Assembly (NCBI GenBank): GCA_002722055.1
Contig: PBKD01000002.1
Location: 62,001 to 126,000 of the forward strand
Reading direction: 5' to 3'
Source of the DNA: Rhodospirillaceae bacterium
GTDB taxonomy: Bacteria > Pseudomonadota > Alphaproteobacteria > SHVP01
Length of the DNA: 64,000 bases
Shown piece by piece: positions 38,146 through 53,187 of this stretch. The position numbers and the translations under genes were made by a program. The notes under the pieces were generated by a model that was not told where the DNA came from, ran no database searches, and saw nothing but the letters and a program-made list of their open reading frames with translations. Positions within the stretch are counted from its first letter, which is position 1; each line of letters starts with the position of its first letter.

Positions 38146-38976
38146 TTGGTAAAATTGTCACTTATTACTAACACTAATGCAAACATACTTGCACAAGAGT
38201 TAGCTAGAATTACAAAAGAAATTAATTCTACACAATTAAAAATAACATCAGGCCTTAAAATTAATGGTCCTCAGGATGATTCTGCATCGTTTAGTATAGC
38301 TACTAGATTAAGAGGTGATAGAAGTGGTTTAAATGCGGTTAAATTAGCACTTTCTAATGGTGAAACAGTAGTCGATACAGCGGTAATCGGAGCAAATGCA
38401 ATAAAAGATATCTTAACAGAAATTAAAAGTAAGGTTGTACAAGGTAATCAAGCAAGTTTGGATGCTGCTACAAGGACATCATTGAATGATGATATTACTT
38501 CTCTTTTAAATCAAATAACAACTACTGTAGGATCATCAGAATTTGATAATATTAACTTAATTAAAACAGATGCATCTACTATGAATATTTTAAGCAGTGT
38601 AAAAGGATCAGTTATTCGTGTTTCTGCGCAGATTTTAGACGTTACTGCTTTGGGAGTAAATTCAATTTCAGTACTCACAAGCGCTAGTGCTGCAACTGCA
38701 CTTACTAATATTAATACAGCTATAACATTAGCAACAGATAGGACAGCAGCTTTAACTTCATCTGCTAAAGGTGTAGAAATACAATCTGACTTCACTTCAT
38801 CTTTAATTAATGTATTTGATGAAGGAATAGGCAAAATTGTAAATAGTAACTTAGCTGAAGAAAGTGCTAAATTACAAGCACTGCAAATTCAACAGGAGCT
38901 TGCTGTTCAGGGACTTTCAATTGCTAATTCAGTTCCAAACTTAATTCTTAAAATGTTTGGTGAAACAAAAAAATAA
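38146..38976 (+). CDS. fliC: Flagellin
   Basis: 276 aa. The N-terminal D0/D1 segment (LITNTNANILAQELARITKEINSTQLKITSGLKINGPQDDSASFSIATRLRGDRSGLNAVKLALSNGETVVDTA) and the C-terminal segment (IGKIVNSNLAEESAKLQALQIQQELAVQGLSIANSVPNLILKMFG) are classic flagellin. The short, Thr/Ala-rich middle suggests a minimal D2/D3. There are no flagellar genes around it. Start is TTG at 38146 after CTGGAG; a GGAG lies 9 nt upstream. No signal peptide, as expected for type III export. Confidence 0.92.
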   Translation: MVKLSLITNTNANILAQELARITKEINSTQLKITSGLKINGPQDDSASFSIATRLRGDRSGLNAVKLALSNGETVVDTAVIGANAIKDILTEIKSKVVQGNQASLDAATRTSLNDDITSLLNQITTTVGSSEFDNINLIKTDASTMNILSSVKGSVIRVSAQILDVTALGVNSISVLTSASAATALTNINTAITLATDRTAALTSSAKGVEIQSDFTSSLINVFDEGIGKIVNSNLAEESAKLQALQIQQELAVQGLSIANSVPNLILKMFGETKK

Positions 38977-38982
38977 TTTATG

Positions 38983-39981
38983 CTAAAAGTTTGGAATTAT
39001 ATGATTTCCATAATCAGCTATAATTTTTTCTTCATCTCCATTATCAAGGTAAATATTAAATTGTGTAACACCTGCTTTTTCAAGTTCTTTTAATTTTTCT
39101 ATATGTGCATCTGGATTACCTAATACACAAAAACTTTTTATTACATCTTCTGTTATAAAGTCTAAATATGGATTATCACTTTTACCATGTTTTGAATAAT
39201 CGTATCCCTTCCTATTTTTAATATAATCTCTTAAACTAGATGGAATTTGGTCAGTATCAGAACCATACTTTTCAACTATATCAGCAATATGATTACCAAC
39301 CATTGCTGGGAACCATTTAACAGCTTCGATTGTATCTGAAATAGGGCCAGTATGTGCAGGTGCTGCTGACATGACTTTATAATTTGACATGTCTCTTCCT
39401 GACTCAACCCCTGCTTTCTTAGCGCTATCGGTTAGCCATTTAACAATTGTTGGTTCTGCTATCTGAAGTATTAATCCGTCTGCTGCCCTGCCAGCTGTAG
39501 ATAAGGCTTTTGGACCATAGGCAGCAAACCATATTGGCAGTTCATAATCTTCAGCCCAAGGGAAAGTTACTGGGTTAGGACATTCACCATACTGAGCTTC
39601 ATTACCTCTTACTAGATCTTTTACAACAGATATGAACTCTTCACACTTTGCTAGTGTTGCTGGTTTCTTTCCCATAACCCTAACAGCACTATCCCCTCTT
39701 CCTAAACCAATATCAAATCTTCCACCTGATTGTTTAGCTAAAGACGCAAACAGTGAAGCAGCATGTGACCAATCACGAGTATTTGGATTAGTAACACAAG
39801 GGCCAAAGCGCATTTTTTCTGTATGTTCCATGCACATTGCCATGGCTACAAAACTTTCACGCCATAGAATATGAGAATCATAAAACCAACAGTATGTAAA
39901 ACCAACATTTTCTGCTTGCCTTACCAAAGCTTTAGCTCTTTTATGATCTACATCACCTTTAAAACAAATTGCAAATTCCAT
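38983..39981 (-). CDS. F420-type luciferase-like (LLM) oxidoreductase
   Basis: 332-aa TIM-barrel flavin/deazaflavin enzyme. It has AENVGFTYCWFYDSH near the N-terminus, MRFGPCVTNPNTRDWSHAASLFASLAKQSGGRFDIGLGRGDSAVRVMG, and PIWFAAYGPKALSTAGRAADGLILQ, motifs of the Mer-like F420-dependent LLM group. It resembles the family I know as 'CPS_4043' putative F420 oxidoreductases, remembered rather than searched. It is the last gene of the 11-gene F420 run, just downstream of the NADPH:F420 reductase, which supports F420 over FMN. Substrate unknown. The stop is 7 nt from the flagellin stop. Confidence 0.82.
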   Translation of the reverse strand: MEFAICFKGDVDHKRAKALVRQAENVGFTYCWFYDSHILWRESFVAMAMCMEHTEKMRFGPCVTNPNTRDWSHAASLFASLAKQSGGRFDIGLGRGDSAVRVMGKKPATLAKCEEFISVVKDLVRGNEAQYGECPNPVTFPWAEDYELPIWFAAYGPKALSTAGRAADGLILQIAEPTIVKWLTDSAKKAGVESGRDMSNYKVMSAAPAHTGPISDTIEAVKWFPAMVGNHIADIVEKYGSDTDQIPSSLRDYIKNRKGYDYSKHGKSDNPYLDFITEDVIKSFCVLGNPDAHIEKLKELEKAGVTQFNIYLDNGDEEKIIADYGNHIIPNF

Positions 39982-40014
39982 TATTTTTCTCCATAAATTA
40001 TTTATAAATTTTAG

Positions 40015-40686
40015 TTAATTATGTTCAGGTGCCCATATTTTTATTCCAGCATGCTTAAAAGGAACCTTTTTTGAAATATTCAATCTGATTAGAATAGGAG
40101 TAAGCGCCTCTACACACCTTGCTGATTGAGCATCACCTACATTGTATGCTTTAACTTTTAGATTACCCAATAAATCTATAACTTTCATTCTTGACTCAAG
40201 GCTATTTCCACATACGAGAATATCACAATTTATTTCCCATTCCAGATTATTTAGCACCCCAGCTGATACATTATGTAACGCTCCAATAACTGGAATGTTT
40301 TCTCCCAAAATAACTTGCGCTGCCTCTGTTGCAGAACCCTCAGGAGGCATATCAACTTTCTTGGGATCTTTTTCGCTTAAAGGCACAACAATATCTATTA
40401 AAATTTTATCAGATAGTGAACTTTTTAGTTCATTTAATGTAGCATTATGAGCTGACCACGGTACTGATAATATAATAAACTCTCTTGATCTTTCCACAGC
40501 TTCTTTATTACCACAACCAAAAATCTTATTTCCTATAGAAGGAAGTTCGTTAGATATTTCATTTGCAACTTTTATAGCATTTTCTTCATTTCTTGAACCT
40601 ATAATTACTTCTAAACCCGCCATCGCAAACCTTTTTGCTAAACCTTGCCCTTGAGGCCCGGTACCACCTATAATCGCAATACTCAT
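40015..40686 (-). CDS. npdG: NADPH:F420 oxidoreductase (Fno/NpdG)
   Basis: 223-aa Rossmann protein that moves hydride between NADPH and F420. The nucleotide loop is [51 protein letters not shown] and [16 protein letters not shown].. match the Fno family, as does the small size. Its start overlaps the cofE stop (ATGA). It would keep F420H2 available for the downstream LLM enzyme or recycle F420. Confidence 0.88.
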
Positions 40687-41456
40687 CTAAACATGTCCTC
40701 TTTTTTAGTTCTTAAAAGATCAGAGGCTACACTATTTCCAGTGGTCCAGTGAAGCCCCTGAAACAAAATAACTGGAGTCTTTTTTGATTTTTTCATCATT
40801 AAACCTGAAGCAGCAGCTATTTCATCAGCATAGGCTGGTTCAGTTACCATTAATCTTTTTCCATGATTATCTAAATTTCCTTGCTCTTTTAAGGTAGCTG
40901 GAACTCCAGACAAGCCGATAGCTACATTTACTTGACCAATTCTCCAAGGTCTTCCAAACGTATCAGTGATTATTACACCAATTCTAACACCAAAAATATT
41001 TGCAAGTTTTTTTTGTAATTTTTTTGCACTTTTATCTGGATTTTTTGGTAATGTAATAACTATATCATCACCATCAATATTTGATTCGTCAACTCCTGCA
41101 TTTGCAGAAATAAAACCTAAATTATGCTCACAAATAATTACGCCTTCATTACTTCTTTCATGTTTGAATGATCTAATTACACTTTTACTTTCATTAAGTA
41201 TGACTTGAATTTTACGTGAATCTTTGTTTAGTTCTTTAGCATAAGCTATTGCCTTATCAGATGGTTGAATTTGATTTAAATCTACTATACACCCTTCAGA
41301 TTTTGAGATAATTTTTTGTGCTATACAAAAAATATCACCATCATTTATAGAATAGTTAGCTTCCTGAACGGCATTATGTATAATTTGATCTAATTTATCA
41401 CCTTGATATATTTCTGGAATTCCATGAATTATTTTAATAGTGATTGAATCATTCAT
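40683..41456 (-). CDS. cofE: F420-0:gamma-glutamyl ligase
   Basis: CofE adds glutamates to F420-0 using GTP. The 257-aa protein has [60 protein letters not shown], and [14 protein letters not shown], all diagnostic. There is no C-terminal nitroreductase-like domain as in mycobacterial FbiB. I use ATG at 41456 ([12 protein letters not shown]), overlapping the end of cofC by 8 nt; an earlier start at 41489 would run 41 nt into cofC. Confidence 0.94.
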
Positions 41457-42093
41457 AATTATAACCTTTGATAAATCCAGGAAAATCATGAAATAGTTTC
41501 TTTACATCATTCATATTATCTACATCATTTTTAATTCTATCAAGATTTAATATTACCGGTTTTAAACCAGCGTTACTAGCTAATTCAATATGAGATAAAA
41601 ATGATTTATAGCCAAAATTAAACTTAATTGCATTTGGAGGAGATACTAAAAAAGCATTAGTACCAAGATCATAAGAAGGACAAATTACTGCAGACCTACC
41701 CTTATTAGAATATAAAAGTAAAGTTTTAATTTCTTCTGTTTTTAGATACGCAATGTCAGCCGGAAAAATACATAAACTTAAATATTTTTTTTTTACAGCC
41801 CATTCTGCAGCAGATTGAATAGAATATGACAAATTACCTTCAATCTCATCATAAATTATTTGTATATTATTTTTTCTTGTCAATTCAGAAATTTCTTTAC
41901 AATTTGTTAAAACAGCTAAATTGAAATTTCCTGCAATATTATCAGTAACTTTTTTGATATTTGATATAGTATTTAAAAATAATTTTAATACTATTTTATT
42001 TTTAATATTTTTAGGTAAGTATTTTTCTAATCTAGACTTAGAAGTGCTTAGATTTTTCATAGGGACAATAATCAAACAACCTTTATAATTCAT
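41449..42093 (-). CDS. cofC: 2-phospho-L-lactate (or related) guanylyltransferase CofC
   Basis: CofC activates 2-phospholactate, phosphoenolpyruvate or 3-phosphoglycerate with GTP for transfer to Fo; which substrate depends on the lineage. The 214-aa protein has VPMKNLSTSKSRLEKYLP at the N-terminus, LSLCIFPADIAYLKTEEI (metal Asp) and RSAVICPSYDLGTNAFLVSPP. The sequence alone does not tell which acid is used. Located between cofD and cofE. Confidence 0.9.
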   Translation of the reverse strand: MNYKGCLIIVPMKNLSTSKSRLEKYLPKNIKNKIVLKLFLNTISNIKKVTDNIAGNFNLAVLTNCKEISELTRKNNIQIIYDEIEGNLSYSIQSAAEWAVKKKYLSLCIFPADIAYLKTEEIKTLLLYSNKGRSAVICPSYDLGTNAFLVSPPNAIKFNFGYKSFLSHIELASNAGLKPVILNLDRIKNDVDNMNDVKKLFHDFPGFIKGYNYE

Positions 42094-42115
42094 TGATAAA
42101 TATTCCTAACAAAGA

Positions 42116-43039
42116 CTAAACTAATTCACTTATTTTTTTTGCTAATTTATATTTTATTGAATTATTTTTCAAAAGTATATCTTCCGTCAAAACTTTAATA
42201 CCTAGTGACTCAATAGATTTTGTGAATTTTTTATCAGATTTATCTATAATTAATACATCAATTAGTTTCTTATAATATTGCGCCACTCCAAGAACATTTG
42301 GATGATAACCCGAATAAATTAGCATTTCTCTTGCTGGGCCTTTTATTGCTCTACCTTGAATTATAGGACTTACAGCAACTTTTAAAGACCTAGATTTACA
42401 AAGAATTTTATTTATTCCATCTATTTTAATGATTGGAGATATACTTACTATTGGATTTGATGGGGCAAACACAATTATATCAGCATTTTTTATATAACTT
42501 ATAGATTCTAAAGTTACTTTTGCTTTATTTACACCCTCAAACTTTATCTTTTTAATTTTAACACTACATCTTTCTCTTACAAAGAATTCTTGAAAAGATA
42601 GCCAACCATCATTAGTGAGAATCTTTGTTCTTACTTTATCATTGGTTGGAACAGTTATATTACACTTAATATTAAATGCTTTAGAAATTTTTTTTGTAAT
42701 TTGTGACAATAATATATTTTTTTTAAGCTGTTGCGTCCTATAAATATGCAAACCAAGATCAGCATCTCCTAAGTTCATCCAAGTTTCATTACCTAGTTCT
42801 TTTAGAACATCTAAAGCTTTGAAGGTATCACTTTTTACCCCCCACCCCTTACACCTATCTATTTTCTTAGATAAAGTATAGATCAAGGTATCAACATCAG
42901 GAGAAACATAAAGACCATGAAAATCATCATCATCAGCTATATTACTAATAACATTTAAAGAAATATTATCTAGGAGGCTTAAAGACTCTGCCATTTTTGC
43001 TCCACCAACACCACCTGCAAACAAAGTAATTTCAACCAT
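42116..43039 (-). CDS. cofD: 2-phospho-L-lactate transferase CofD
   Basis: CofD joins the activated phospho-acid to the Fo deazaflavin to give F420-0 (or the dehydro/glyceryl form). In the 307-aa protein the start TLFAGGVGGAKMAESL and NIADDDDFHGLYVSPDVDTLIYTLSKKIDRCKGWGVKSDTF are diagnostic, with metal/phosphate-binding Asp residues. VFAPSNPIVSISPIIKI follows. Located between cofH and cofC. Confidence 0.94.
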   Translation of the reverse strand: MVEITLFAGGVGGAKMAESLSLLDNISLNVISNIADDDDFHGLYVSPDVDTLIYTLSKKIDRCKGWGVKSDTFKALDVLKELGNETWMNLGDADLGLHIYRTQQLKKNILLSQITKKISKAFNIKCNITVPTNDKVRTKILTNDGWLSFQEFFVRERCSVKIKKIKFEGVNKAKVTLESISYIKNADIIVFAPSNPIVSISPIIKIDGINKILCKSRSLKVAVSPIIQGRAIKGPAREMLIYSGYHPNVLGVAQYYKKLIDVLIIDKSDKKFTKSIESLGIKVLTEDILLKNNSIKYKLAKKISELV

Positions 43040-43065
43040 TTTTTAGTGAATTTTAAACATAAAAA

Positions 43066-44292
43066 TTAATTTAAAAACTCTATTGGATCAAAAGAGTTTC
43101 TTTTGACTAAGGGATCATAAAATTTAGGATCATCTGTTTTAAAAATTTCTTTTGTTTTATACAAGGTATCTCTTTGGGCAGGAATTTTATTTGTTGATCT
43201 TATTAATTTAGCCATTTCAAACCCTGTTAACTCTTGACCAAATTGTGAACCAGCAGATCTTGAAATACTCTCGTTCATTAGTGTACCTCCAAGGTCATTC
43301 ACACCACAACCTAGAAGCATTTGAACTTTCTTAGGACCAAGTTTAGTCCAAGACACCTGGATATTATCAATAAATTTATTAAAAAAAATTCTTGAAACAG
43401 CATGCATTTTCATAATTTCTATATCAGTTGGCCCAGCTCTAACATTAAGCTTTTTATCATGAAAAAGTGGTGAATTTTTATAAACAAAACTTAAAGGAAT
43501 AAATTCTGTAAAACCACTTGTCTCTTTTTGAATTTCTCTAATTTTGAATAAATGATTAGACCAATTTTTAATTTCATCAACATGACCATACATTATAGTC
43601 GAAGTAGTTTTTAATCCAACCTTATGAGCTGTTTTTATAATCCTTACCCACTCATCAGAACTTAATTTATTCTTTGTCAAAATATTTCTTACTTTTACAT
43701 CTAAAATTTCTGCAGCAGTACCAGGCATTGATCCTAAACCACATTCTTTTAAATCAGTTAGATAATCAAAATAGCTCATTTTCATCTTAGCCGCTCCATA
43801 CCAAATTTCAAACGGGGAGAAGGCATGTATATGAATCGATGGTATCTCATTTTTTATACTTAGAAGAATATCCCTATAAAATCTGCCTGGTAATTTTGGA
43901 TGCAAACCTCCCTGAATACAGACTTCCGTAGCCCCCCTATCCCATGCTTCTCTAGCCCTTCTAACTATTTCATTGAGATTTAACCATTCTGCATCTGAGT
44001 CATTTATTTTTTTAGCAAAATTACAAAATTTGCAACCCATATGACATACATTTGTGAAGTTTATATTTCTATTAATTACATAAGTAACTATATTACCATT
44101 AGCCTCTTTTCTCAAATGATCCGCTACCTTTAAAAGAGCACTAAAATCTTCATTTTTTGAAGAAAAAAGAACTTCTGATTCTTCTCTAGTTATCTCAACA
44201 CCAGATAATGATTTTTCTAAAATTTTATAAATATTTGAGTTTAGTTTGATCAAAGTCTCATTATCAATTAAATTTTTAAGAGAATTGATCAT
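43066..44292 (-). CDS. cofH: FO synthase subunit 2 (radical SAM)
   Basis: CofH uses a 5'-deoxyadenosyl radical to attack tyrosine and couple it to the ribitylaminouracil. The 408-aa protein has the radical-SAM CxxxCxxC in NVCHMGCKFCNF, then TEVCIQGGLHPKLPGRFYRDILL, STIMYGHVDEIKNW and AGPTDIEIMKMHAVSRIFF. It overlaps the cofG stop by 4 nt. Split CofG/CofH as in archaea and cyanobacteria, not the fused FbiC of Actinobacteria. Confidence 0.93.
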   Translation of the reverse strand: MINSLKNLIDNETLIKLNSNIYKILEKSLSGVEITREESEVLFSSKNEDFSALLKVADHLRKEANGNIVTYVINRNINFTNVCHMGCKFCNFAKKINDSDAEWLNLNEIVRRAREAWDRGATEVCIQGGLHPKLPGRFYRDILLSIKNEIPSIHIHAFSPFEIWYGAAKMKMSYFDYLTDLKECGLGSMPGTAAEILDVKVRNILTKNKLSSDEWVRIIKTAHKVGLKTTSTIMYGHVDEIKNWSNHLFKIREIQKETSGFTEFIPLSFVYKNSPLFHDKKLNVRAGPTDIEIMKMHAVSRIFFNKFIDNIQVSWTKLGPKKVQMLLGCGVNDLGGTLMNESISRSAGSQFGQELTGFEMAKLIRSTNKIPAQRDTLYKTKEIFKTDDPKFYDPLVKRNSFDPIEFLN

Positions 44293-45434
44293 AATAATTC
44301 CTCAGAAATTTGATTTATAGCTAAACCGTGATTATCGGCTATATTCAATATTTTATTAACCATATTAGCTGACATAAAATTTTTGTTAACTTTTTGAAAT
44401 TTTGGATAAATTGTAAGTCTTTCTCTAAGTTTATAGCCTTTATCCTTCATTAATTTATTTAATTTGTCAATCTGAGGCCATTCTCTCTCAGGATTTATAT
44501 GATCAATTGTTACTGGAGAAATACCTCCCCAATCATTAATTCCAGCATCAAGATATTTCAAAAATTGATTGCTGAGATTTGGAGGAGCTTGAATGCTTAT
44601 TTCTGGTTCTAAAATTATTCGAGATATTGCTATAGTTCTTAACATTTCATCCAAACTTGGCTCAGGTGAGTTCTGCATAGGTATACCTATTTTTGCTCGA
44701 AAATTTTGAATAATAACTTCTTGAATATGGCCATACTTTTTATGAATATCATTTATTTTTAATATTGAATTAATTCTATCATCCCATGTCTCCCCTATAC
44801 CAATAAGAATACCTGTTGTGAATGGAACCTTTAATTCTCCTGCTGTTTCAATTGTACGGATTCTTATTGATGGAACTTTATCAGGGCACTTGTAGTGAGC
44901 GCCACCCTTTTTAATAATTTTATTGCTTGTAGTTTCAAGCATCATACCCATTGAAGCAGTAACAGGTTTCAATATATCAATTTCTTTTTTATTTAAAGTA
45001 CCAATATTTGTATGAGGCAAAAGGTTAGTTTCTTTATTTACTATTTGACACATACTTGATAGGTAATCAACAAGCGAAGAGTGACCAAAAGATCTTAGTT
45101 TATCTAAAACACTTAAGTACTTTAGTTCTGGCTTTTCACCTAAACTAAAAAGAACTTCTTTGCAGCCATATTTTTCTCCTTTAGAAACAATTTCCATAAC
45201 TTGTTCTGGGTTCAACACTTTTGCTGATGGAGAATTAGGATTCTTTACAAAGGTACAATAACCGCACTGATTTCTACAAATATTTGTTAAAGGAACAAAT
45301 ACTTTTCTGGAGTAAGTAATTTTATTACCATATGACTTATCTCTTATTTTTTTAGCTTGCTTCATAAGTGAGTTTAAATCACCGGAAATTAAAAAAGATC
45401 TATCTATGTTGTTTAATTTTTTTATATTATTCAT
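44289..45434 (-). CDS. cofG: FO synthase subunit 1 (radical SAM)
   Basis: CofG closes the Fo ring after the CofH reaction. The 381-aa protein has the [4Fe-4S]-SAM motif NICRNQCGYCTF (CxxxCxxC), KGEKYGCKEVLFSLGEKPE, NKEIDILKPVTASMGMMLETTS and FTTGILIGIGETWDDRI. DAGINDWGGISPVTIDHINPEREWP is characteristic of the CofG branch. First cof gene in the run, 17 nt after the D-2-hydroxyacid dehydrogenase. Confidence 0.93.
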   Translation of the reverse strand: MNNIKKLNNIDRSFLISGDLNSLMKQAKKIRDKSYGNKITYSRKVFVPLTNICRNQCGYCTFVKNPNSPSAKVLNPEQVMEIVSKGEKYGCKEVLFSLGEKPELKYLSVLDKLRSFGHSSLVDYLSSMCQIVNKETNLLPHTNIGTLNKKEIDILKPVTASMGMMLETTSNKIIKKGGAHYKCPDKVPSIRIRTIETAGELKVPFTTGILIGIGETWDDRINSILKINDIHKKYGHIQEVIIQNFRAKIGIPMQNSPEPSLDEMLRTIAISRIILEPEISIQAPPNLSNQFLKYLDAGINDWGGISPVTIDHINPEREWPQIDKLNKLMKDKGYKLRERLTIYPKFQKVNKNFMSANMVNKILNIADNHGLAINQISEELL

Positions 45435-45451
45435 AATTACTATTAATAAAT

Positions 45452-46435
45452 TTATTTATCATCTAAGGCAACTAGCCTCTCGACATTTCTATTTTCTAAA
45501 AAGGATTTTACATTTTCTGCGGCCTGGTTGCCTGCTTTTATAAATGATCCCTCAGTTATAGCTGAGTTATGAGGGGAACCATAAAAATTTGGTAAATCGA
45601 AAAATGGATATTCTGTTTTAAAATCACCATGGGTAATAGGCTCTCTCCACCAAGAATCAATCCAAGCTTTAGCCTCAGTGTTTTCTTTTAACCAACTATA
45701 TAGTGCTTTTTGCTGAATAACATCACCTCTTGCTACATTGATAATTAGTGAATTTTTTTTTAATAAATTAATATTTTTTTCGTTTATTAACATTCTTGTT
45801 GAGTCATTTAAACTTACACTCAAAATAACAATATCTGACAAGCTTAAAACTTTATCTAATTCAGACAATTTTCCGATGAAATTTACTTTATCCTTAGTAT
45901 AACCCGACCGATTAATTGCCATAATATTTACCCCAAAAACTCTCAAATAATTAGCAGTTTTTTTTCCAATTCCCCCATAGCCAATAATTCCACATGTCTC
46001 TCCTGAAATAGACTTAGTTGGAGAAAATTGGTCCCACTCACCTTTTTTTAATTTTAAATAACGAGAGTTTAGTTCTCTATAGGAATCAATCACAATTCCA
46101 AGAATATATTCTGCAATAGGATCAGCAAATGCTCCACCATTGTGAGCAATTAAAACATCTTTTGGAAATTTATTTAATTTAAATGAGTCAATTCCAGATA
46201 TAAATGATTGTATGAATTTACCACTAAATAATGAAACCTCTTGATCAGTAAATTCTAGATTTGGCCTCGTTACTATTATAGCATTTGATTCTTTAATTAC
46301 CTTTAATCTATCTTGGGGTCTTAGATTATCAAGCATATAAATATCAGCAATATCTCCAAGCACTCTATTTATCTCAATTTTTGCATCTTCTGATATCTTA
46401 AAACTTATTAATACTTTACTTTTAAAATTAGTCAT
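45452..46435 (-). CDS. D-2-hydroxyacid dehydrogenase (NAD-dependent)
   Basis: 327 aa. The Rossmann loop is GIIGYGGIGKKTANYLRVFG. The catalytic Arg sits in NVARGDVIQQKAL, Glu in DSWWREPITH and His in SPHNSAITEGSF. This puts it in the family of glyoxylate/hydroxypyruvate/phenylpyruvate-type reductases, which reduce 2-oxo acids to D-2-hydroxy acids; the exact substrate is not visible. Directly upstream of cofG (17 nt) and 2 nt after a kinase-fold gene, so it is in the F420 transcription unit. Confidence 0.85.
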   Translation of the reverse strand: MTNFKSKVLISFKISEDAKIEINRVLGDIADIYMLDNLRPQDRLKVIKESNAIIVTRPNLEFTDQEVSLFSGKFIQSFISGIDSFKLNKFPKDVLIAHNGGAFADPIAEYILGIVIDSYRELNSRYLKLKKGEWDQFSPTKSISGETCGIIGYGGIGKKTANYLRVFGVNIMAINRSGYTKDKVNFIGKLSELDKVLSLSDIVILSVSLNDSTRMLINEKNINLLKKNSLIINVARGDVIQQKALYSWLKENTEAKAWIDSWWREPITHGDFKTEYPFFDLPNFYGSPHNSAITEGSFIKAGNQAAENVKSFLENRNVERLVALDDK

Positions 46436-46437
46436 AT

Positions 46438-47430
46438 TTATATCAGTTTTGCTAACTTAGAATGATTACGTAATGATTTAGAAAACCAGTCTAATCCAGG
46501 GAAATGAAAAGATACATGACCAATAGCATTTATAGCTTTTGCAAAACCACATAAATAGCTTAATTCTTTACCTAATAAAAAAGCATCAAATGAATTAATT
46601 TCATCTTTATTTAAAGTTCTTACTGAGTCATAACCCAATAAAAACACATCCCAAAGTTTTTTATCTAAAGAGTTTTTTTCAATTGACCATTTATAGCTCA
46701 TTATTTCTTGGGCATAAAAGTCAATACCACATGCATCAAAATCCATAATAGTTATTTCTTTTTCATCTAAAACAAAAGCATTATGTATATGAAAATCACC
46801 ATGCGTCATTCCATATCTTAAATTATTATTTTTATAAGAGAGCTTATAAATAGAATTTATTTTTGATGCTATTTCTTTATAAAACACTAAATCATCTTTT
46901 CTATGACCAACCAATTTTTCTAAATCATTAAGGGAATTATATATGTTTTGCTCTCTTTTAATATGCTTATCATTAACTTTTAAATCAAATGACTCTGAAA
47001 AATTATGTAGATTACCAAAAATAATACCCATCTTCTTAGAAATATTTATAGTTGGATTTTTTGAAAAAACCTCTCCGTCAACAAAATTAAAAACACTTGC
47101 ATACCTTTTACCTTCAATACTGTGAAATGAAAAGACCCATTCATTGGATATATTTTTTTTAGGAATTGGAACTCTAATTCCACTTTTATGTAAAAAAGTT
47201 AAGAACTCCATTTGTCTGTTTAAATCATACTTACTTTTTGTATTTGGTCTCCACACTTGAGCGACAAAAATCATATCTTTTGATCGTAATAAATAAAAGT
47301 CGTTCATTCCTCTATGAAGCAACTCACATACTAAATCTTTATTAAAATCGTATAATTTAGTAATTAATTGCCCTAATGCATTAGCATCTATGGTTGAATG
47401 TGCTGTTGGTAAAATATTGTTTTCTGTCAT
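46438..47430 (-). CDS. APH-fold small-molecule kinase (phosphotransferase), copy 1
   Basis: 330 aa. Brenner motif MTHGDFHIHNAFV (catalytic Asp) and metal motif ITIMDFDACGIDFYAQEI mark it as an APH/choline-kinase/homoserine-kinase-II fold. The N-terminus HSTIDANALGQL, CELLHRGMNDFYLLRS and the C-terminus LDWFSKSLRNHSKLAKLI match the copy at 48672-49652, so the two are paralogs. Substrate unknown; candidates include hydroxy acids, amino alcohols or sugars. 15 nt downstream of an MFS gene. Confidence 0.8.
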   Translation of the reverse strand: MTENNILPTAHSTIDANALGQLITKLYDFNKDLVCELLHRGMNDFYLLRSKDMIFVAQVWRPNTKSKYDLNRQMEFLTFLHKSGIRVPIPKKNISNEWVFSFHSIEGKRYASVFNFVDGEVFSKNPTINISKKMGIIFGNLHNFSESFDLKVNDKHIKREQNIYNSLNDLEKLVGHRKDDLVFYKEIASKINSIYKLSYKNNNLRYGMTHGDFHIHNAFVLDEKEITIMDFDACGIDFYAQEIMSYKWSIEKNSLDKKLWDVFLLGYDSVRTLNKDEINSFDAFLLGKELSYLCGFAKAINAIGHVSFHFPGLDWFSKSLRNHSKLAKLI

Positions 47431-47445
47431 AAATTAACTTAAATT

Positions 47446-48666
47446 TTATAATATATATTTTTTATTATTATAATTTAAATAAAGAAAAAACAATATTAAA
47501 AGCGATGTTACGATAGTTACAAATATCAAACTTAAATCAAAATTACCTGAAATATCTAGTATTTTCCCCATTGAAAGAGGGCCTAAAACACCCCCTATCT
47601 CAGCAAAAGTAAAGAAAAGACCCCCAGCCGCACCCATGTGCTCAGATTTAACGCCAGGGGATTCCATTAATATTAATATTGCAATAGTCATTAGAGTAGC
47701 TCGAGATATTCCTTGTAAAATAAGACCAACGGATAAAATAGGCAACCAATCAATTAATAGAAGTAGTGTTGAAACTATAGCACTTAAAATTAAAATGAAA
47801 AAAATAAACATTCTCCTATCAGGTGTAGCAAATCGTGGAATTAAAATAGATCCTACAATTCCGACTAATGTAGGGAGTGAAGCCCAATAACCAGCCTGAG
47901 ATAATGTCATATTTTTCATTCTTAATATTTCCGGTAACCAGTTAAATAAACCATGACTGTAAAAAAATATACATACACTCATAAGTAATAAAATTTTTAC
48001 ATTTCTTAATTTTATTAAATTCCAGTAGATAATTAATTGTTTAAAAATATTAAAATTATTTTGATTAGAGTTTTTAATTTGTATTCCTTTACAAAGATAA
48101 ATCCAAATAGCACTTGAAACAAAAACAAAAAAAGAAAATAATAAAATTACGTCTCTCCAATCATTTTCAAAAATAGGCATAAACAAGCTATTAGTAGTTG
48201 ATAGCGCAAAGATACTTCCAAATGCAGGGCCTGTTATATATATACCCATTGCAAAACCCCTCTCTTTGCCAACAAAATAATCAGCTATTAATTTTGGAGC
48301 ACCTATAGAAATTAGAGGGCCGCCAATACCAAAAAGGGCTACAGACAAAAACATAGTTGAAAAATCATATGATAGAGAACGCAATAAACCTGAAAGAGCC
48401 ATAATTAAAGCCGCAATGAATAGAGAGATCTTTAAACCAGCACGATCTACAAATGCACCACAAGGAATTGCCATAATTATATATATTAATGGCCAGGCTC
48501 CTAAAATTGTACCCATTTGTGTTGAAGTAATAGCTAAGTCCTCAATAATAATTGAAACAATAGGAGCTAATGAAAACATCATCAAACCAAAAACAAAATA
48601 TATTAACCAAACTCCAGATAAATATAACCACCTTGATTTATCTGGTACTGCTATATTCGAATCCAT
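47446..48666 (-). CDS. MFS transporter between two kinase paralogs
   Basis: 406 aa, about 12 TM segments. N-terminal half LSGVWLIYFVFGLMMFSLAPIVSIIIEDLAITSTQMGTILGAWPLIYIIMAIPCGAFVDRAG is a typical MFS start with a GxxxDRxG loop-2 motif. It resembles organic-anion/nitrate-type or CynX-like MFS members. Location between two kinases in the F420 run suggests import of the kinase substrate, which is inference. Confidence 0.82.
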   Translation of the reverse strand: MDSNIAVPDKSRWLYLSGVWLIYFVFGLMMFSLAPIVSIIIEDLAITSTQMGTILGAWPLIYIIMAIPCGAFVDRAGLKISLFIAALIMALSGLLRSLSYDFSTMFLSVALFGIGGPLISIGAPKLIADYFVGKERGFAMGIYITGPAFGSIFALSTTNSLFMPIFENDWRDVILLFSFFVFVSSAIWIYLCKGIQIKNSNQNNFNIFKQLIIYWNLIKLRNVKILLLMSVCIFFYSHGLFNWLPEILRMKNMTLSQAGYWASLPTLVGIVGSILIPRFATPDRRMFIFFILILSAIVSTLLLLIDWLPILSVGLILQGISRATLMTIAILILMESPGVKSEHMGAAGGLFFTFAEIGGVLGPLSMGKILDISGNFDLSLIFVTIVTSLLILFFLYLNYNNKKYIL

Positions 48667-48671
48667 GGCAT

Positions 48672-49652
48672 TTAAATCAAACCTGCTTTTTTAAAATTTA
48701 ACTTAGTTTTTTCGCTAAACCAATCAAGGTTTGGGCTTAATAATGGAGTATGTCCAACTGAATTTACATTTGCTGCAAAACCACACAGAAAAGATAGTTC
48801 TTTAAGTGCATAAAAAAAATTTAGTAAACTTAATTCTGAGTCATTAAGATTTCTTACAGAATTATAGCCTTTTAAAAATGATTCACTAATTTTTTGATCT
48901 ATTCCAACATAGTCATTAGCCCAAATAAAACTACAAATATCAAATATTAGATAATATTTACCACAATTATCAAAATCCATTATTGTAATTTTTTTATCAT
49001 TAAAAAAAGCATTGTATAAATGAAAATCACCATGCACTACACCATATGGTATTTTTTTAGAATTTAATTCATCTAATTTATTTATCATTATATTAACTGC
49101 ACTTTGATACCACTTTAAATCATCAATTCTATGAGTATTCATTTTTAATAGATAACTTATTTCTGTCTCTAACCGCACTTTCATATCAATCTCTCTTGAA
49201 ACAGTAGGTGCAAAATTTATCATAACCTCATGAATTTTTGCTAGCTCTGCGCCTAATTTATATGATTTATCAATATCAGGTTTTGAACCAAACACGTTAC
49301 CATCAACCCAGGAAAAAATAGAAAAATAACGTTTACCTTCTGGAGCATTTATCTCCATATATAAAGATTTATTTTGAGACTCTAAAGGGAATGGAATATT
49401 AATATTTTTACTGTTTAAAAAAGCTAATAACTCTGTTTCGAAAATAATATTATTTTCAGATCTAAACCCAGATCTCCATACACGACAAGCATAAAATCTA
49501 TTTGATCCATCTCTAATAAGATAAACATCATTCATACCTCTATTCAGAAGCTCACAATGTATAGGGCCTGGGAAACTCCAATTATACGAAACAAGATTAG
49601 AAAGGCTTTTAGAATCAATAATAGAGTGAGTGATTGGTAGATTATCTGTCAT
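48672..49652 (-). CDS. APH-fold small-molecule kinase (phosphotransferase), copy 2
   Basis: 326 aa, paralog of the kinase at 46438-47430. Shared blocks are HSIIDSKSL, HCELLNRGMNDVYLIRDGSNRFYACRVWRSG, GVVHGDFHLYNAFF (Brenner Asp), ITIMDFDNCG, GYNSVRNLND and LDWFSEKTKLNFKKAGLI. First gene of the 11-gene minus-strand run; its ATG at 49652 faces the pncA-like gene across a 93-nt shared promoter region. Confidence 0.8.
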   Translation of the reverse strand: MTDNLPITHSIIDSKSLSNLVSYNWSFPGPIHCELLNRGMNDVYLIRDGSNRFYACRVWRSGFRSENNIIFETELLAFLNSKNINIPFPLESQNKSLYMEINAPEGKRYFSIFSWVDGNVFGSKPDIDKSYKLGAELAKIHEVMINFAPTVSREIDMKVRLETEISYLLKMNTHRIDDLKWYQSAVNIMINKLDELNSKKIPYGVVHGDFHLYNAFFNDKKITIMDFDNCGKYYLIFDICSFIWANDYVGIDQKISESFLKGYNSVRNLNDSELSLLNFFYALKELSFLCGFAANVNSVGHTPLLSPNLDWFSEKTKLNFKKAGLI

Positions 49653-49745: not shown

Positions 49746-50378
49746 ATGACAAAAATAAATCCTAACTCTAATGAAGCCCTAATAGTAGTGGATATCCAAA
49801 ATGATTTTTGTGAGGGAGGTGCTTTAGAAGTACCAGACGCAAGTAAAATCATTGATAAATCTAACAAGTTAATTAATATTTTTGATCAAGTAATACTAAC
49901 CCAAGATTGGCATCCATATAACCATATATCATTTGCAAGTCAGCATAAAGGTAAAAAGCCATTTGATATAATTGAAGTAGATTATGGAAAACAAACTCTT
50001 TGGCCTGAACACTGTATTCAAGGTACATATGGAGCAGACTTTCATAGAAATTTAATTACTAAAGCCGCGAAATTAATTATTAGAAAAGGTTATAATAAAA
50101 ATATTGACTCATACTCAGCTTTTTTTGAAAATGATAAATATACCTGTACAGGCTTAAAAGGCTATATAAATGAAAAAAAAATAAATAAAGTTTATTTTCT
50201 TGGGTTAGCTTTAGATGTATGCGTTAAAGATTCTGCTTTAGACTCTAAGAATTCAGGATTAGATACATATGTTTTTGAGGATTTATGCAAAGGTCTGAGC
50301 AAACAAAGTTCAGATAATGCTATTGATTTAATGAATAAATCAAAAATAAAAATAATTGACTCCAATAAATTTATTTAA
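49746..50378 (+). CDS. Nicotinamidase-like isochorismatase-fold hydrolase
   Basis: 210 aa. The catalytic triad of nicotinamidases is present: Asp in ALIVVDIQNDFCEGG, Lys in IIRKGYNKNIDSYSAF and Cys in GLALDVCVKDSALD. So is the metal site DWHPYNHISFASQH (Asp/His/His). Deamidation of nicotinamide to nicotinate is the most likely reaction (PncA). In this context it could act on another amide or cyclic substrate. Start of a three-gene plus-strand unit with two flavoproteins, 12 nt before the first. Confidence 0.82.
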   Translation: MTKINPNSNEALIVVDIQNDFCEGGALEVPDASKIIDKSNKLINIFDQVILTQDWHPYNHISFASQHKGKKPFDIIEVDYGKQTLWPEHCIQGTYGADFHRNLITKAAKLIIRKGYNKNIDSYSAFFENDKYTCTGLKGYINEKKINKVYFLGLALDVCVKDSALDSKNSGLDTYVFEDLCKGLSKQSSDNAIDLMNKSKIKIIDSNKFI

Positions 50379-50390
50379 AGAAGTGGTAAA

Positions 50391-51791
50391 ATGGTAATTA
50401 CTCAAGAAAATAAAAATTTTGATGTAAATTTTCCTATTATAATCATTGGGGCAGGAGCATGTGGCCTATGCGCAGCATTATCTGCAAATGAGCAAGGCAT
50501 AAATCCTTTAATATTAGAGAGAGACAAAGTTCCCTCTGGTTCTTCTGCTTTATCTACATGTTTAATTCCTGCTGCAGGAACTAAACTACAAAGAGACGCT
50601 GGGGTTAATGACACACCAGAAAATTTTGCAAATGACATTATAAATAAAGCAAGAAATTTGAATGACCCAAATATGGTTAAGTTTATTACAAATGAATCTG
50701 GGCCAACTGTTGACTGGCTGATTGAAAATGATGTTCCACTAAATTTAATAACTAGTTTTTTTTACCCAGGTCATTCTCAGTACAGAATGCACGGTTCACC
50801 TAACAGAACTGGAAACGAACTTATGGAAGCTTTATTAAAAAAAGTAAGTGAACAAAAAATCGACTTAATGACTTCAGCTTTGGTGTCTAATATTTATATT
50901 AATAGTAAAAAATCGATTAAAGGTGTTGAAATAACAAGACCCAACGGAGACAAAGAACGTGTCGGGTGCAATATACTAATTCTTGCTTGCAATGGATTCG
51001 GTGGAAATTCCAATATGGTAAAAAAATATATTCCTGAAATGGCAGATGCATTATATTTTGGACATACTGGTAATAGAGGGGATGCTATAAAATGGGGAAT
51101 TGAAATAGGTGCATCAATCTCTGATATAGGAAGTTACCAAGGTCATGGGGCAGTTACTCATCCTCATGGGACTTTGTTGTTTTGGGGATTAATGACTCAG
51201 GGAGGGTTTCAAGTAAATATTAATGGAGAAAGATTTTCTAATGAAGTAAGGGGGTATTCAGAACAAGCAGTTGATGTAATTTCTCAAGAAAATTCATATG
51301 TTTGGGAAATATGGGACTCTATCAGCCATGAAATAGGTATGGATTTTGTTGATTACAGGAATGGTGCTGATTTAGGAGCTCATAAGGTTGCAAATGATAT
51401 TAAACAAATATCATCTATAACAAAAATTCCTTTAGAAAAATTAGAAAATACATTTGAATATGTAAATCATTGTATTGATAATAAAATAAAAGATAAGTTT
51501 GGCAGAGATTGGTCAAATATTAAGACAATGACCAAGCCCTATTATTTTGCTAAAGTAACTGGTGCTCTATTTCATACACAAGGAGGTTTGGATATTAATT
51601 CTTTGGCTCAAGTATTAGATAAAAGTGGCAAACCTTTTCCTAATTTATTTGCTGGTGGAGGAGCTGCAAGAGGGTTATCGGGACCTTCAAGATGGGGATA
51701 CTTGTCAGGAAATGGTTTATTAACAGCAGTTGTTTTGGGTAAAATAGCTGGCCAAAATGCTGCAAAAAAAATTATTGGAAATGACTGTTAA
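50391..51791 (+). CDS. FAD-dependent oxidoreductase (fumarate-reductase/KstD-like), tandem copy 1
   Basis: 466 aa. FAD loop IIIIGAGACGLCAALSANEQGINPLILERD and the second FAD segment NLFAGGGAARGLSGPSRWGYLSGNGLLTAVVLGKIAG place it in the FAD_binding_2 family of fumarate reductase, 3-ketosteroid dehydrogenase and tricarballylate dehydrogenase. The middle has TGALFHTQGGL. It has no heme domain, signal peptide or covalent-flavin domain, so it is probably soluble and cytosolic. It overlaps the next, paralogous gene by 11 nt. Substrate unknown. Confidence 0.82.
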   Translation: MVITQENKNFDVNFPIIIIGAGACGLCAALSANEQGINPLILERDKVPSGSSALSTCLIPAAGTKLQRDAGVNDTPENFANDIINKARNLNDPNMVKFITNESGPTVDWLIENDVPLNLITSFFYPGHSQYRMHGSPNRTGNELMEALLKKVSEQKIDLMTSALVSNIYINSKKSIKGVEITRPNGDKERVGCNILILACNGFGGNSNMVKKYIPEMADALYFGHTGNRGDAIKWGIEIGASISDIGSYQGHGAVTHPHGTLLFWGLMTQGGFQVNINGERFSNEVRGYSEQAVDVISQENSYVWEIWDSISHEIGMDFVDYRNGADLGAHKVANDIKQISSITKIPLEKLENTFEYVNHCIDNKIKDKFGRDWSNIKTMTKPYYFAKVTGALFHTQGGLDINSLAQVLDKSGKPFPNLFAGGGAARGLSGPSRWGYLSGNGLLTAVVLGKIAGQNAAKKIIGNDC

Positions 51792-53187
51792 ATTAGATAA
51801 ATCTATAAATTTTGATATTACATACCCAGTTGTAATTGTGGGTGGGGGTGCTGCTGGGTTAACTGCAGCTTTAGCAACAAGAGACGAAGGAGTTGAAGTT
51901 CTTGTTTTAGAGCGAGATAATGAGCCAAAAGGAACAACCTCTATGTCACAAGGAAATATAGCTGGCGCAGGTACAAAAAGTCAAAAAGGCTTTGGAATAG
52001 ATGATTCAGGAGAAATTTTTGCGAAGGATATAATAAACTTAACCAAAGGTGAAACTGATCACTCACTTGCTAAGTTTTTTGCAAACGAATCAGGAAAAAC
52101 AATAGATTGGCTTGTCGAAAAACATGGTATTCCATTAGAGTTAGATCTTGATTGGGGAGCTAAGCTTGGTCACTCAAAACCTAGAATACATTGCACACCC
52201 TCTAAAACTGGTATTGAACTGATGACACTATTAACAAATGCTTGCTCTCACTCAGGAGTAGATATATTAACAAATGCTCATGTAACAGAGCTATTCATAA
52301 ATGATAAGAAAGCTATTATTGGTCTTAAATATAAAAGACCAGATGGGAGTACCGAAAATGTAGGTTGCAATTCACTAATAATTGCAACAAGTGGTTTTGG
52401 TGCAAACCGTGAAATGATTAAAAAATTTATTCCTGAAATGGCAAATGCTATATATCACGGTCATGAGGGTAATGATGGGGCCGGAATAAATTGGGGTATA
52501 GAACTAGGAGCAGCAACAAAAGATATGACATCTTTTCAAGGACTCGGAGCACTTTCTGAACCTTCAAGAATATTGATTCACTATAATACAATTTTAAGAG
52601 GCGGGGTAATACTAAATACAGAAGGCAAAAGGTTTACTGATGAAAGTAAAGACATTTCTGGAATGGGAAGAAAAGTTTCATCTCAACCTAATGGGTTTGT
52701 TTGGTTTATTTTTGATGAAAAAATTCATAATTTCTCAAAGAAATATGAAGAGCATAAAGATGCTATTGAAAGTGGAACAATTAAAAAAGCTAATTCTCCA
52801 GAAGATCTATCAGATATTACTAAAATCCCGTTATACAATTTAAATAAAACTCTAGAAGATTTAAACAAAATACAATCAGGCTCTATGAAAGATCCTTTTG
52901 GAAGAATTTTTGATCCTGGTTTGTTGCTTAACGGGCCTCCTTGGTTCACAACAAAATGTGTTGGAGCTTTATTTCATACTCAGGGAGGCTTGGTAATAAA
53001 TGAATGTGGTGAGGTAATTCGAGAAGACGGGACTAAGTTACCAAATTTGTATGCAGCTGGAGGAACTGCTAGGTCAATTTCAGGACCATCAGATTGGGGA
53101 TATATTCCTGCAGCAGGTTTATTTACAGCAACAACACAAGGAAGAATTGCGGGTAAAAATGCAGGTAAAAAAAACAAGATTAAATAA
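51781..53187 (+). CDS. FAD-dependent oxidoreductase (fumarate-reductase/KstD-like), tandem copy 2
   Basis: 468 aa from ATG 51781 (MTVKLDKSINFDITY). The FAD loop is VVIVGGGAAGLTAALATRDEGVEVLVLERD. The C-terminal GALFHTQGGLVINECGEV, NLYAAGGTARSISGPSDWGYIPAAGLFTATTQGRIAG aligns with the previous gene along its length, so the pair arose by duplication. The two could form a heterodimer or act on successive substrates; neither is shown by sequence. A longer start at 51757 would lie deeper in the first copy. Confidence 0.82.
   Translation: MTVKLDKSINFDITYPVVIVGGGAAGLTAALATRDEGVEVLVLERDNEPKGTTSMSQGNIAGAGTKSQKGFGIDDSGEIFAKDIINLTKGETDHSLAKFFANESGKTIDWLVEKHGIPLELDLDWGAKLGHSKPRIHCTPSKTGIELMTLLTNACSHSGVDILTNAHVTELFINDKKAIIGLKYKRPDGSTENVGCNSLIIATSGFGANREMIKKFIPEMANAIYHGHEGNDGAGINWGIELGAATKDMTSFQGLGALSEPSRILIHYNTILRGGVILNTEGKRFTDESKDISGMGRKVSSQPNGFVWFIFDEKIHNFSKKYEEHKDAIESGTIKKANSPEDLSDITKIPLYNLNKTLEDLNKIQSGSMKDPFGRIFDPGLLLNGPPWFTTKCVGALFHTQGGLVINECGEVIREDGTKLPNLYAAGGTARSISGPSDWGYIPAAGLFTATTQGRIAGKNAGKKNKIK

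Follow-up and report, generated by a model that had tools for sequence, protein, structure and literature searches.

An F420 cassette with a putative uracil reductase beside a separate kinase module in a Rhodospirillaceae bacterium

What does a marine alphaproteobacterium with a genome of 2.16 Mb use the cofactor F420 for? The question is raised by eleven tightly packed genes at positions 38983–49652 of a 64,000-nucleotide stretch of DNA from a Rhodospirillaceae bacterium (assembly GCA_002722055.1, contig PBKD01000002.1, positions 62,001–126,000; here the window), which has a GC content of 30% and comes from a genome (G000) that is ~99% complete. An earlier note on this DNA took these genes to be one functional unit of F420 synthesis and catabolism and left its substrate and purpose blank. 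We show here that the unit is made of two modules: a family-specific one encoding two kinases (KinA and KinB), a major facilitator superfamily (MFS) transporter and a D-2-hydroxyacid dehydrogenase (2HADH), and a seven-gene F420 cassette (38983–45434) that ends in a luciferase-like monooxygenase (LLM)-class oxidoreductase. The neighbourhoods of this LLM in other bacteria point to pyrimidines, and the cassette probably serves an F420H2-dependent reduction of uracil by the LLM, with the kinase part being separate; in G000 ring opening may fall to the hydantoinase HyuAB.

Pyrimidine catabolism genes beside the LLM

The LLM gene (38983..39981, (-) strand) encodes a protein that matches TIGR03842 over the full model length (496 bits; cut-off 295). 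From sequenced genomes we took the 80 best LLM loci, compared their 20 kb flanks and counted neighbours at ≥40% identity, with nine cofD loci lacking an adjacent LLM as a control. Dihydropyrimidinase was a neighbour in 29 loci, amidase in 31, an NCS1 transporter in 18, a RutR-like TetR regulator in 20, omega-aminotransferase in 9 and PntA in 10, the loci being mutually related and these counts not independent. In the control loci dihydropyrimidinase, amidase and NCS1 were all absent at the same identity and, as a rough estimate of our own, the chance of finding such a gene in 20 kb is ~1%, given one or two of them per 4 Mb genome. The LLM-adjacent proteins were over the cut-offs for dihydropyrimidinase (TIGR02033), hydantoinase/carbamoylase amidase and omega-aminotransferase (AptA), and for the TetR protein RutR was the best model, with a score below its cut-off. 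The arrangement varied by lineage, with pyrimidine genes divergent from, downstream of, upstream of or overlapping the LLM. In Leisingera, the cassette is divergent from NCS1, dihydropyrimidinase, amidase, omega-aminotransferase and pntBA, with the RutR-like gene following the cassette, and on a Streptomyces plasmid a dihydropyrimidinase homologue overlaps the LLM. In two further genomes (G371 and G294), LLM, amidase and dihydropyrimidinase stand in a row with no PreA. Likewise, the cassette of Paracoccus denitrificans, whose LLM orthologue is 80% identical to that of the window, has dihydropyrimidinase, amidase, NCS1 and a RutR-like regulator as neighbours, with no PreA in the genome.

Many of these relatives share with the Pyd pathway its downstream dihydropyrimidinase, ureidopropionase-type amidase and omega-aminotransferase, along with NCS1 and the RutR-like regulator. 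The first enzyme of that pathway, PydA/PreTA, is what differs. Neither preA nor preT was present in any of the 80 LLM flanks, and PreA was below cut-off or absent in 44 of the 50 LLM genomes tested. It was absent genome-wide in 22 of the 23 tested genomes with dihydropyrimidinase beside the LLM (at least 13 of the 22 are isolates, and some are incomplete single-cell or metagenome-assembled genomes (MAGs)), and these 22 have the later pathway steps with no known first enzyme. In two f81 genomes (G089 and G372), the corresponding genes for amidase, aminotransferase and TetR have preT-preA next to them. The reaction proposed for the LLM is identical to that of PydA (uracil to dihydrouracil), but the LLM-fold protein, proposed to be F420H2-dependent, is unrelated to PydA, which uses flavin mononucleotide (FMN) and iron-sulphur clusters. 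Its fold differs from that of the PydA/PreA family, and no PreA was over the cut-off in G000 (NF006183). The dihydropyrimidine dehydrogenase variants described in PMC7332683, using NADPH, NADH or ferredoxin, all belong to the PydA family.

The gene order cofG-cofH-cofD-cofC-cofE-npdG-LLM is also found on plasmids of Paracoccus and Leisingera, and roughly half of the 80 loci have it in complete or almost complete form, for example those in Paracoccus, Pseudovibrio, Marinomonas, Halomonas, Marinobacter and Vibrio. The cassette is conserved across marine Alpha- and Gammaproteobacteria and is partly plasmid-borne, and we infer that the seven genes form a mobile cassette for making and using F420. 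Members of the same LLM family adjoin FbiC-type cof genes instead in Roseibium, Roseisalinus and G203, and this is an independent LLM-F420 pairing. CofD was over its cut-off in 66 of the 80 LLM genomes, compared with 57 of the 385 alphaproteobacterial genomes sampled. Among named relatives the closest is the MAG MarineAlpha2_Bin1, with an LLM 95% identical to that of the window; judging by coinciding match positions, this MAG is apparently the genome G006. The earlier note regarded a compact F420 operon in a low-GC streamlined genome as unusual; F420 genes are, however, not rare in Alphaproteobacteria, given the 57 CofD genomes, and cofD-cofE-npdG-LLM also occurs in marine alphaproteobacterial single-cell genomes of 1.3–2.2 Mb. 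In these (L183–L185, L187, L189–L191), a transporter, amidase and dihydropyrimidinase follow the LLM (read gene by gene in L183), and cofC, cofG and cofH were not found within 20 kb. A locus at near-Leisingera identity also occurs in a record titled Nocardioides marinus DP1N28-1 (L174), which is probably a mislabelled or contaminated assembly.

F420 biosynthesis and the proposed reaction

Using NCBIfam equivalog hidden Markov models with curated cut-offs, we examined the six (-) strand genes that accompany the LLM. These are cofG (44289..45434; TIGR03550, 473 bits, cut-off 213) and cofH (43066..44292; TIGR03551, 494 bits, cut-off 374), encoding the FO synthase subunits, cofD for the 2-phospholactate transferase (42116..43039; TIGR01819, 269 bits, cut-off 257), cofC for the phospholactate/phosphoenolpyruvate guanylyltransferase (41449..42093; TIGR03552, 116.5 bits, cut-off 105), cofE for the F420-0:glutamate ligase (40683..41456; TIGR01916, 243 bits, cut-off 181; a start at the 12th codon is preferred) and npdG/fno for the F420:NADPH oxidoreductase (40015..40686; TIGR01915, 194 bits, cut-off 150). 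All five Cof proteins exceeded their own cut-offs, which bears out the complete F420 synthesis set claimed in the earlier note, as NpdG and the Mer-like TIGR03842 protein do its NADPH reductase and likely F420 enzyme. The genes cofG and cofH are separate open reading frames with a 4-nt overlap and no FbiC-type fusion, their translations contain the radical-SAM CxxxCxxC motif (CRNQCGYC in CofG and CHMGCKFC in CofH), and CofD is present in G000 as a single copy. The biosynthetic steps are identical to those of the FbiC-type F420 loci of other Alphaproteobacteria; those loci, however, have their own CofH clade, from which the CofH of the cassette stands apart in a supported clade, and in many the order is npdG-cofE-cofD-cofC-cofG-cofH, whereas the cassette has separate cofG and cofH and a dedicated LLM attached.

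We also considered 3PG-F420, the Mycetohabitans-type variant of the cofactor, for which Ser or Thr is expected at the position of Mrhiz-CofC S162 (PMC8764529). Alignment with 7P97 placed Gly at this diagnostic position of the window CofC, so 3PG-F420 is not expected and this candidate was not supported. The window CofE has no FbiB reductase domain, so that synthesis by way of phosphoenolpyruvate would depend on an additional, free-standing reductase.

In the mechanism we propose, CofG, CofH, CofC, CofD and CofE would make F420 and NpdG would reduce it with NADPH, after which the LLM would use F420H2 to convert uracil, and probably thymine too, into the dihydropyrimidine, in place of the flavin/iron-sulphur PydA/PreTA. 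Where relatives have a recognisable pathway, in most of them a dihydropyrimidinase would then open the ring and beta-ureidopropionase would yield the beta-amino acid, and in G000 the ring would be opened by ATP-dependent HyuAB, encoded with an amidase on contig 14. A wider proposal, which we hold tentatively as somewhat short of probable, is that TIGR03842 is an F420H2-dependent dihydropyrimidine dehydrogenase and a non-homologous replacement of PydA that spread as a self-sufficient cassette, that scavenging of pyrimidine nitrogen explains F420 in many marine Proteobacteria, and that HyuAB opens the ring in the lineage of the window. Within the one open-licence literature collection searched, we found no description of a role for F420 or TIGR03842 in uracil reduction. 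Why Proteobacteria make F420 was listed as unanswered in a 2021 review, and P. denitrificans makes only traces of it (PMC8498797). If the proposal is correct, F420 in P. denitrificans should rise, and be required, with uracil as nitrogen source, and this would be a new reaction for F420 biochemistry and a non-homologous first step for pyrimidine catabolism.

Several observations weigh against uracil reduction. PreA was found in only 64 of the 385 genomes of the class, and as it is absent from 83% its absence alone is weak evidence and the linked gene clusters carry the argument. Furthermore, six of the 50 LLM genomes have both PreA and LLM; mutual exclusion of the two was accordingly rejected as a statistical proof, being too weak alone. 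Several LLM loci, including that of Paracoccus alcaliphilus, have no pyrimidine genes nearby, and nothing pyrimidine-specific was found near the cassette in the annotated part of the window. In G000, TIGR02033 gave only sub-cut-off matches, the best at 200 bits against 393; this protein is 26% identical to the Leisingera dihydropyrimidinase and may be a dihydroorotase. Finally, no CofD passed the cut-off in 14 of the 80 LLM genomes, 11 of them in a Devosia/Pelagibacterium-type clade (L217, L220, L222–L228, L230, L246). These 11 carry the TIGR03842 LLM, and most of them also a nearby CofE homologue, but CofD was not found in the genome; the one Devosia locus examined (L226:5112-10996) encodes CofE and an F420-dependent glucose-6-phosphate dehydrogenase. 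An unrecognised CofD, scavenging or another cofactor are possible explanations.

Because no HydA-type dihydropyrimidinase was found in G000, a pyrimidine role is less certain there than in the relatives. G000 does encode a TIGR01879 beta-ureidopropionase-type amidase (G000:C14:104834-106030; 396 bits, cut-off 204), which is 39–51% identical to most LLM-adjacent amidases and whose gene adjoins those for the hydantoinase (subunits HyuA and HyuB) and for a nitrilase-family protein. Within the family of G000, this amidase was present in G000, G006, G001, G002, G003 (in two pieces), G007 and G008, all of which have the LLM cassette or PreA; it was not found in G004 and G009, which are near-complete and have neither PreA nor CofD, nor in G005, which is 64% complete. 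In three related MAG loci HyuAB takes the place of HydA beside the LLM. ATP-dependent N-methylhydantoinase also hydrolyses dihydrouracil, and HyuAB with the amidase is a plausible candidate for replacing HydA in ring opening in G000. An Asp/Glu/hydantoin racemase and ABC transporter genes also lie near the HyuA-HyuB-amidase-nitrilase cluster (G000:C14:96000-115999; L257).

The kinase module and rival explanations

Within the family, CofD was detected only in the genus of G000 (2 of 10 genomes), while strong KinA homologues are confined to the family and occur in genomes without CofD. In G001 and G002, which have no cofD, kinA, MFS genes, kinB and 2HADH are contiguous and adjoin, as they do in the window, a divergent gene of the isochorismatase family. 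The kinase module is therefore independent of F420, being kept in relatives without cofD. In both genomes preT-preA lies a few kb past 2HADH (L066–L068), and in G003 2HADH and preTA are likewise neighbours; the cof cassette of the window occupies the side where these relatives have preTA, and an in-place replacement is possible. In sequence and in fold, KinA and KinB are similar to kinases acting on amicoumacin, homoserine and aminopropanol, which narrows their probable substrate only to that of amino-alcohol-type kinases. A supply of lactate for F420 by the 2HADH was also considered, and was rejected as 2HADH lies outside the cassette in other bacteria.

That all eleven genes form one catabolic pathway, in which the kinases, transporter and 2HADH handle a substrate whose redox step needs F420, is improbable. 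The genes do overlap or lie 2–33 nt apart, and a second genome of the genus (L034) has the same junction between kinase module and cassette. Nonetheless, the kinase module occurs in family members without cofD and the cassette without the kinase module in other bacteria, with kinase, MFS and 2HADH queries giving the best match in none of the 80 LLM loci at the threshold used, and we rejected a single eleven-gene pathway on these grounds. The one-unit view of the earlier note falls with it. Very improbable, in turn, is an FMN-dependent, RutA-like oxygenase, with the F420 genes serving another enzyme. The F420 in the name of TIGR03842 is only a prediction and the 11 Devosia/Pelagibacterium-type genomes would agree with such a role, but the nearest solved structure by sequence is F420-dependent methylene-tetrahydromethanopterin reductase (Mer; 146 bits), with other F420 LLMs next and FMN types weaker. 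Likewise, the predicted structure (mean pLDDT 89.6) best matched Mer, including F420-bound entries, with a TM score of ~0.8, and no score was over the cut-off for RutA or other FMN-LLM families. Although Mer is its closest relative in both respects, the LLM scored far below the Mer equivalog cut-off (126 bits; cut-off 276) and its proposed substrate is different. None of the seven other LLMs of G000 was above any F420-model cut-off, so the TIGR03842 protein is the only recognised LLM-type F420 user in this genome, and the family occurs together with cof genes of two different lineages. Taken together, its closest relatives, its predicted fold and its gene linkage favour F420 over FMN as the likely cofactor.

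It is unlikely, though less so, that the LLM reduces another uracil-like ring, such as hydantoin, yanthine or another N-heterocycle, with the cyclic amidase and carbamoylase serving that pathway. The nearest literature precedent for our proposal is of this kind: a putative F420-dependent LLM, proposed only, as yanthine reductase in uricolytic gene clusters of Chloroflexota (PMC12507026). Both proposals put an LLM in the place of a PydA/YgfK-type reductase acting on a uracil-like ring, but the Chloroflexota enzyme would belong to a purine pathway, whereas the cassette described here is linked to pyrimidines, occurs in marine Proteobacteria and has its own F420 biosynthesis. The hydantoinase/oxoprolinase-type HyuAB and the racemase of the G000 amidase cluster, and the HyuAB genes of the three MAG loci, would also suit another ring. 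Uracil reduction is favoured by the RutR-like regulator, NCS1 transporter and omega-aminotransferase that recur beside the cassette, and by the tested ring hydrolases, which pass the dihydropyrimidinase cut-off and not that of allantoinase.

Layout of the unit and flanking genes

All eleven open reading frames were found on the (-) strand. From kinA onward the gaps are 5, 15, 2, 17, -4, 26, 22, -8, -4 and 33 nt, values that assume the 12th-codon start of cofE, as its first ATG would give a 41-nt overlap with cofC. A search of the minus strand within the unit gave no terminator-like site, which, with the tight spacing, is consistent with the single transcript suggested earlier without proving it. 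The unit begins with kinA (48672..49652; PF01636), encoding an APH-fold small-molecule kinase with intact HGD and DFD motifs, followed by the MFS transporter gene (47446..48666; PF07690), which has a 51–52% homologue between the kinase genes of G001 and G002. Next are kinB (46438..47430; PF01636), a second APH-fold kinase in which HGD and DFD are kept, and 2HADH (45452..46435; PF02826), with a 39–40% homologue in the G001 and G002 kinase clusters. At the other end, a short gene convergent with the LLM (38146-38976) has a flagellin N-terminal domain as its only recognised part. Beyond kinA, positions 49746-53187 encode a divergent nicotinamidase (PncA) and then two flavocytochrome c/fumarate-reductase-like flavoproteins; this arrangement next to kinA recurs in the second genome of the genus, with 85–86% identity for the flavoproteins.

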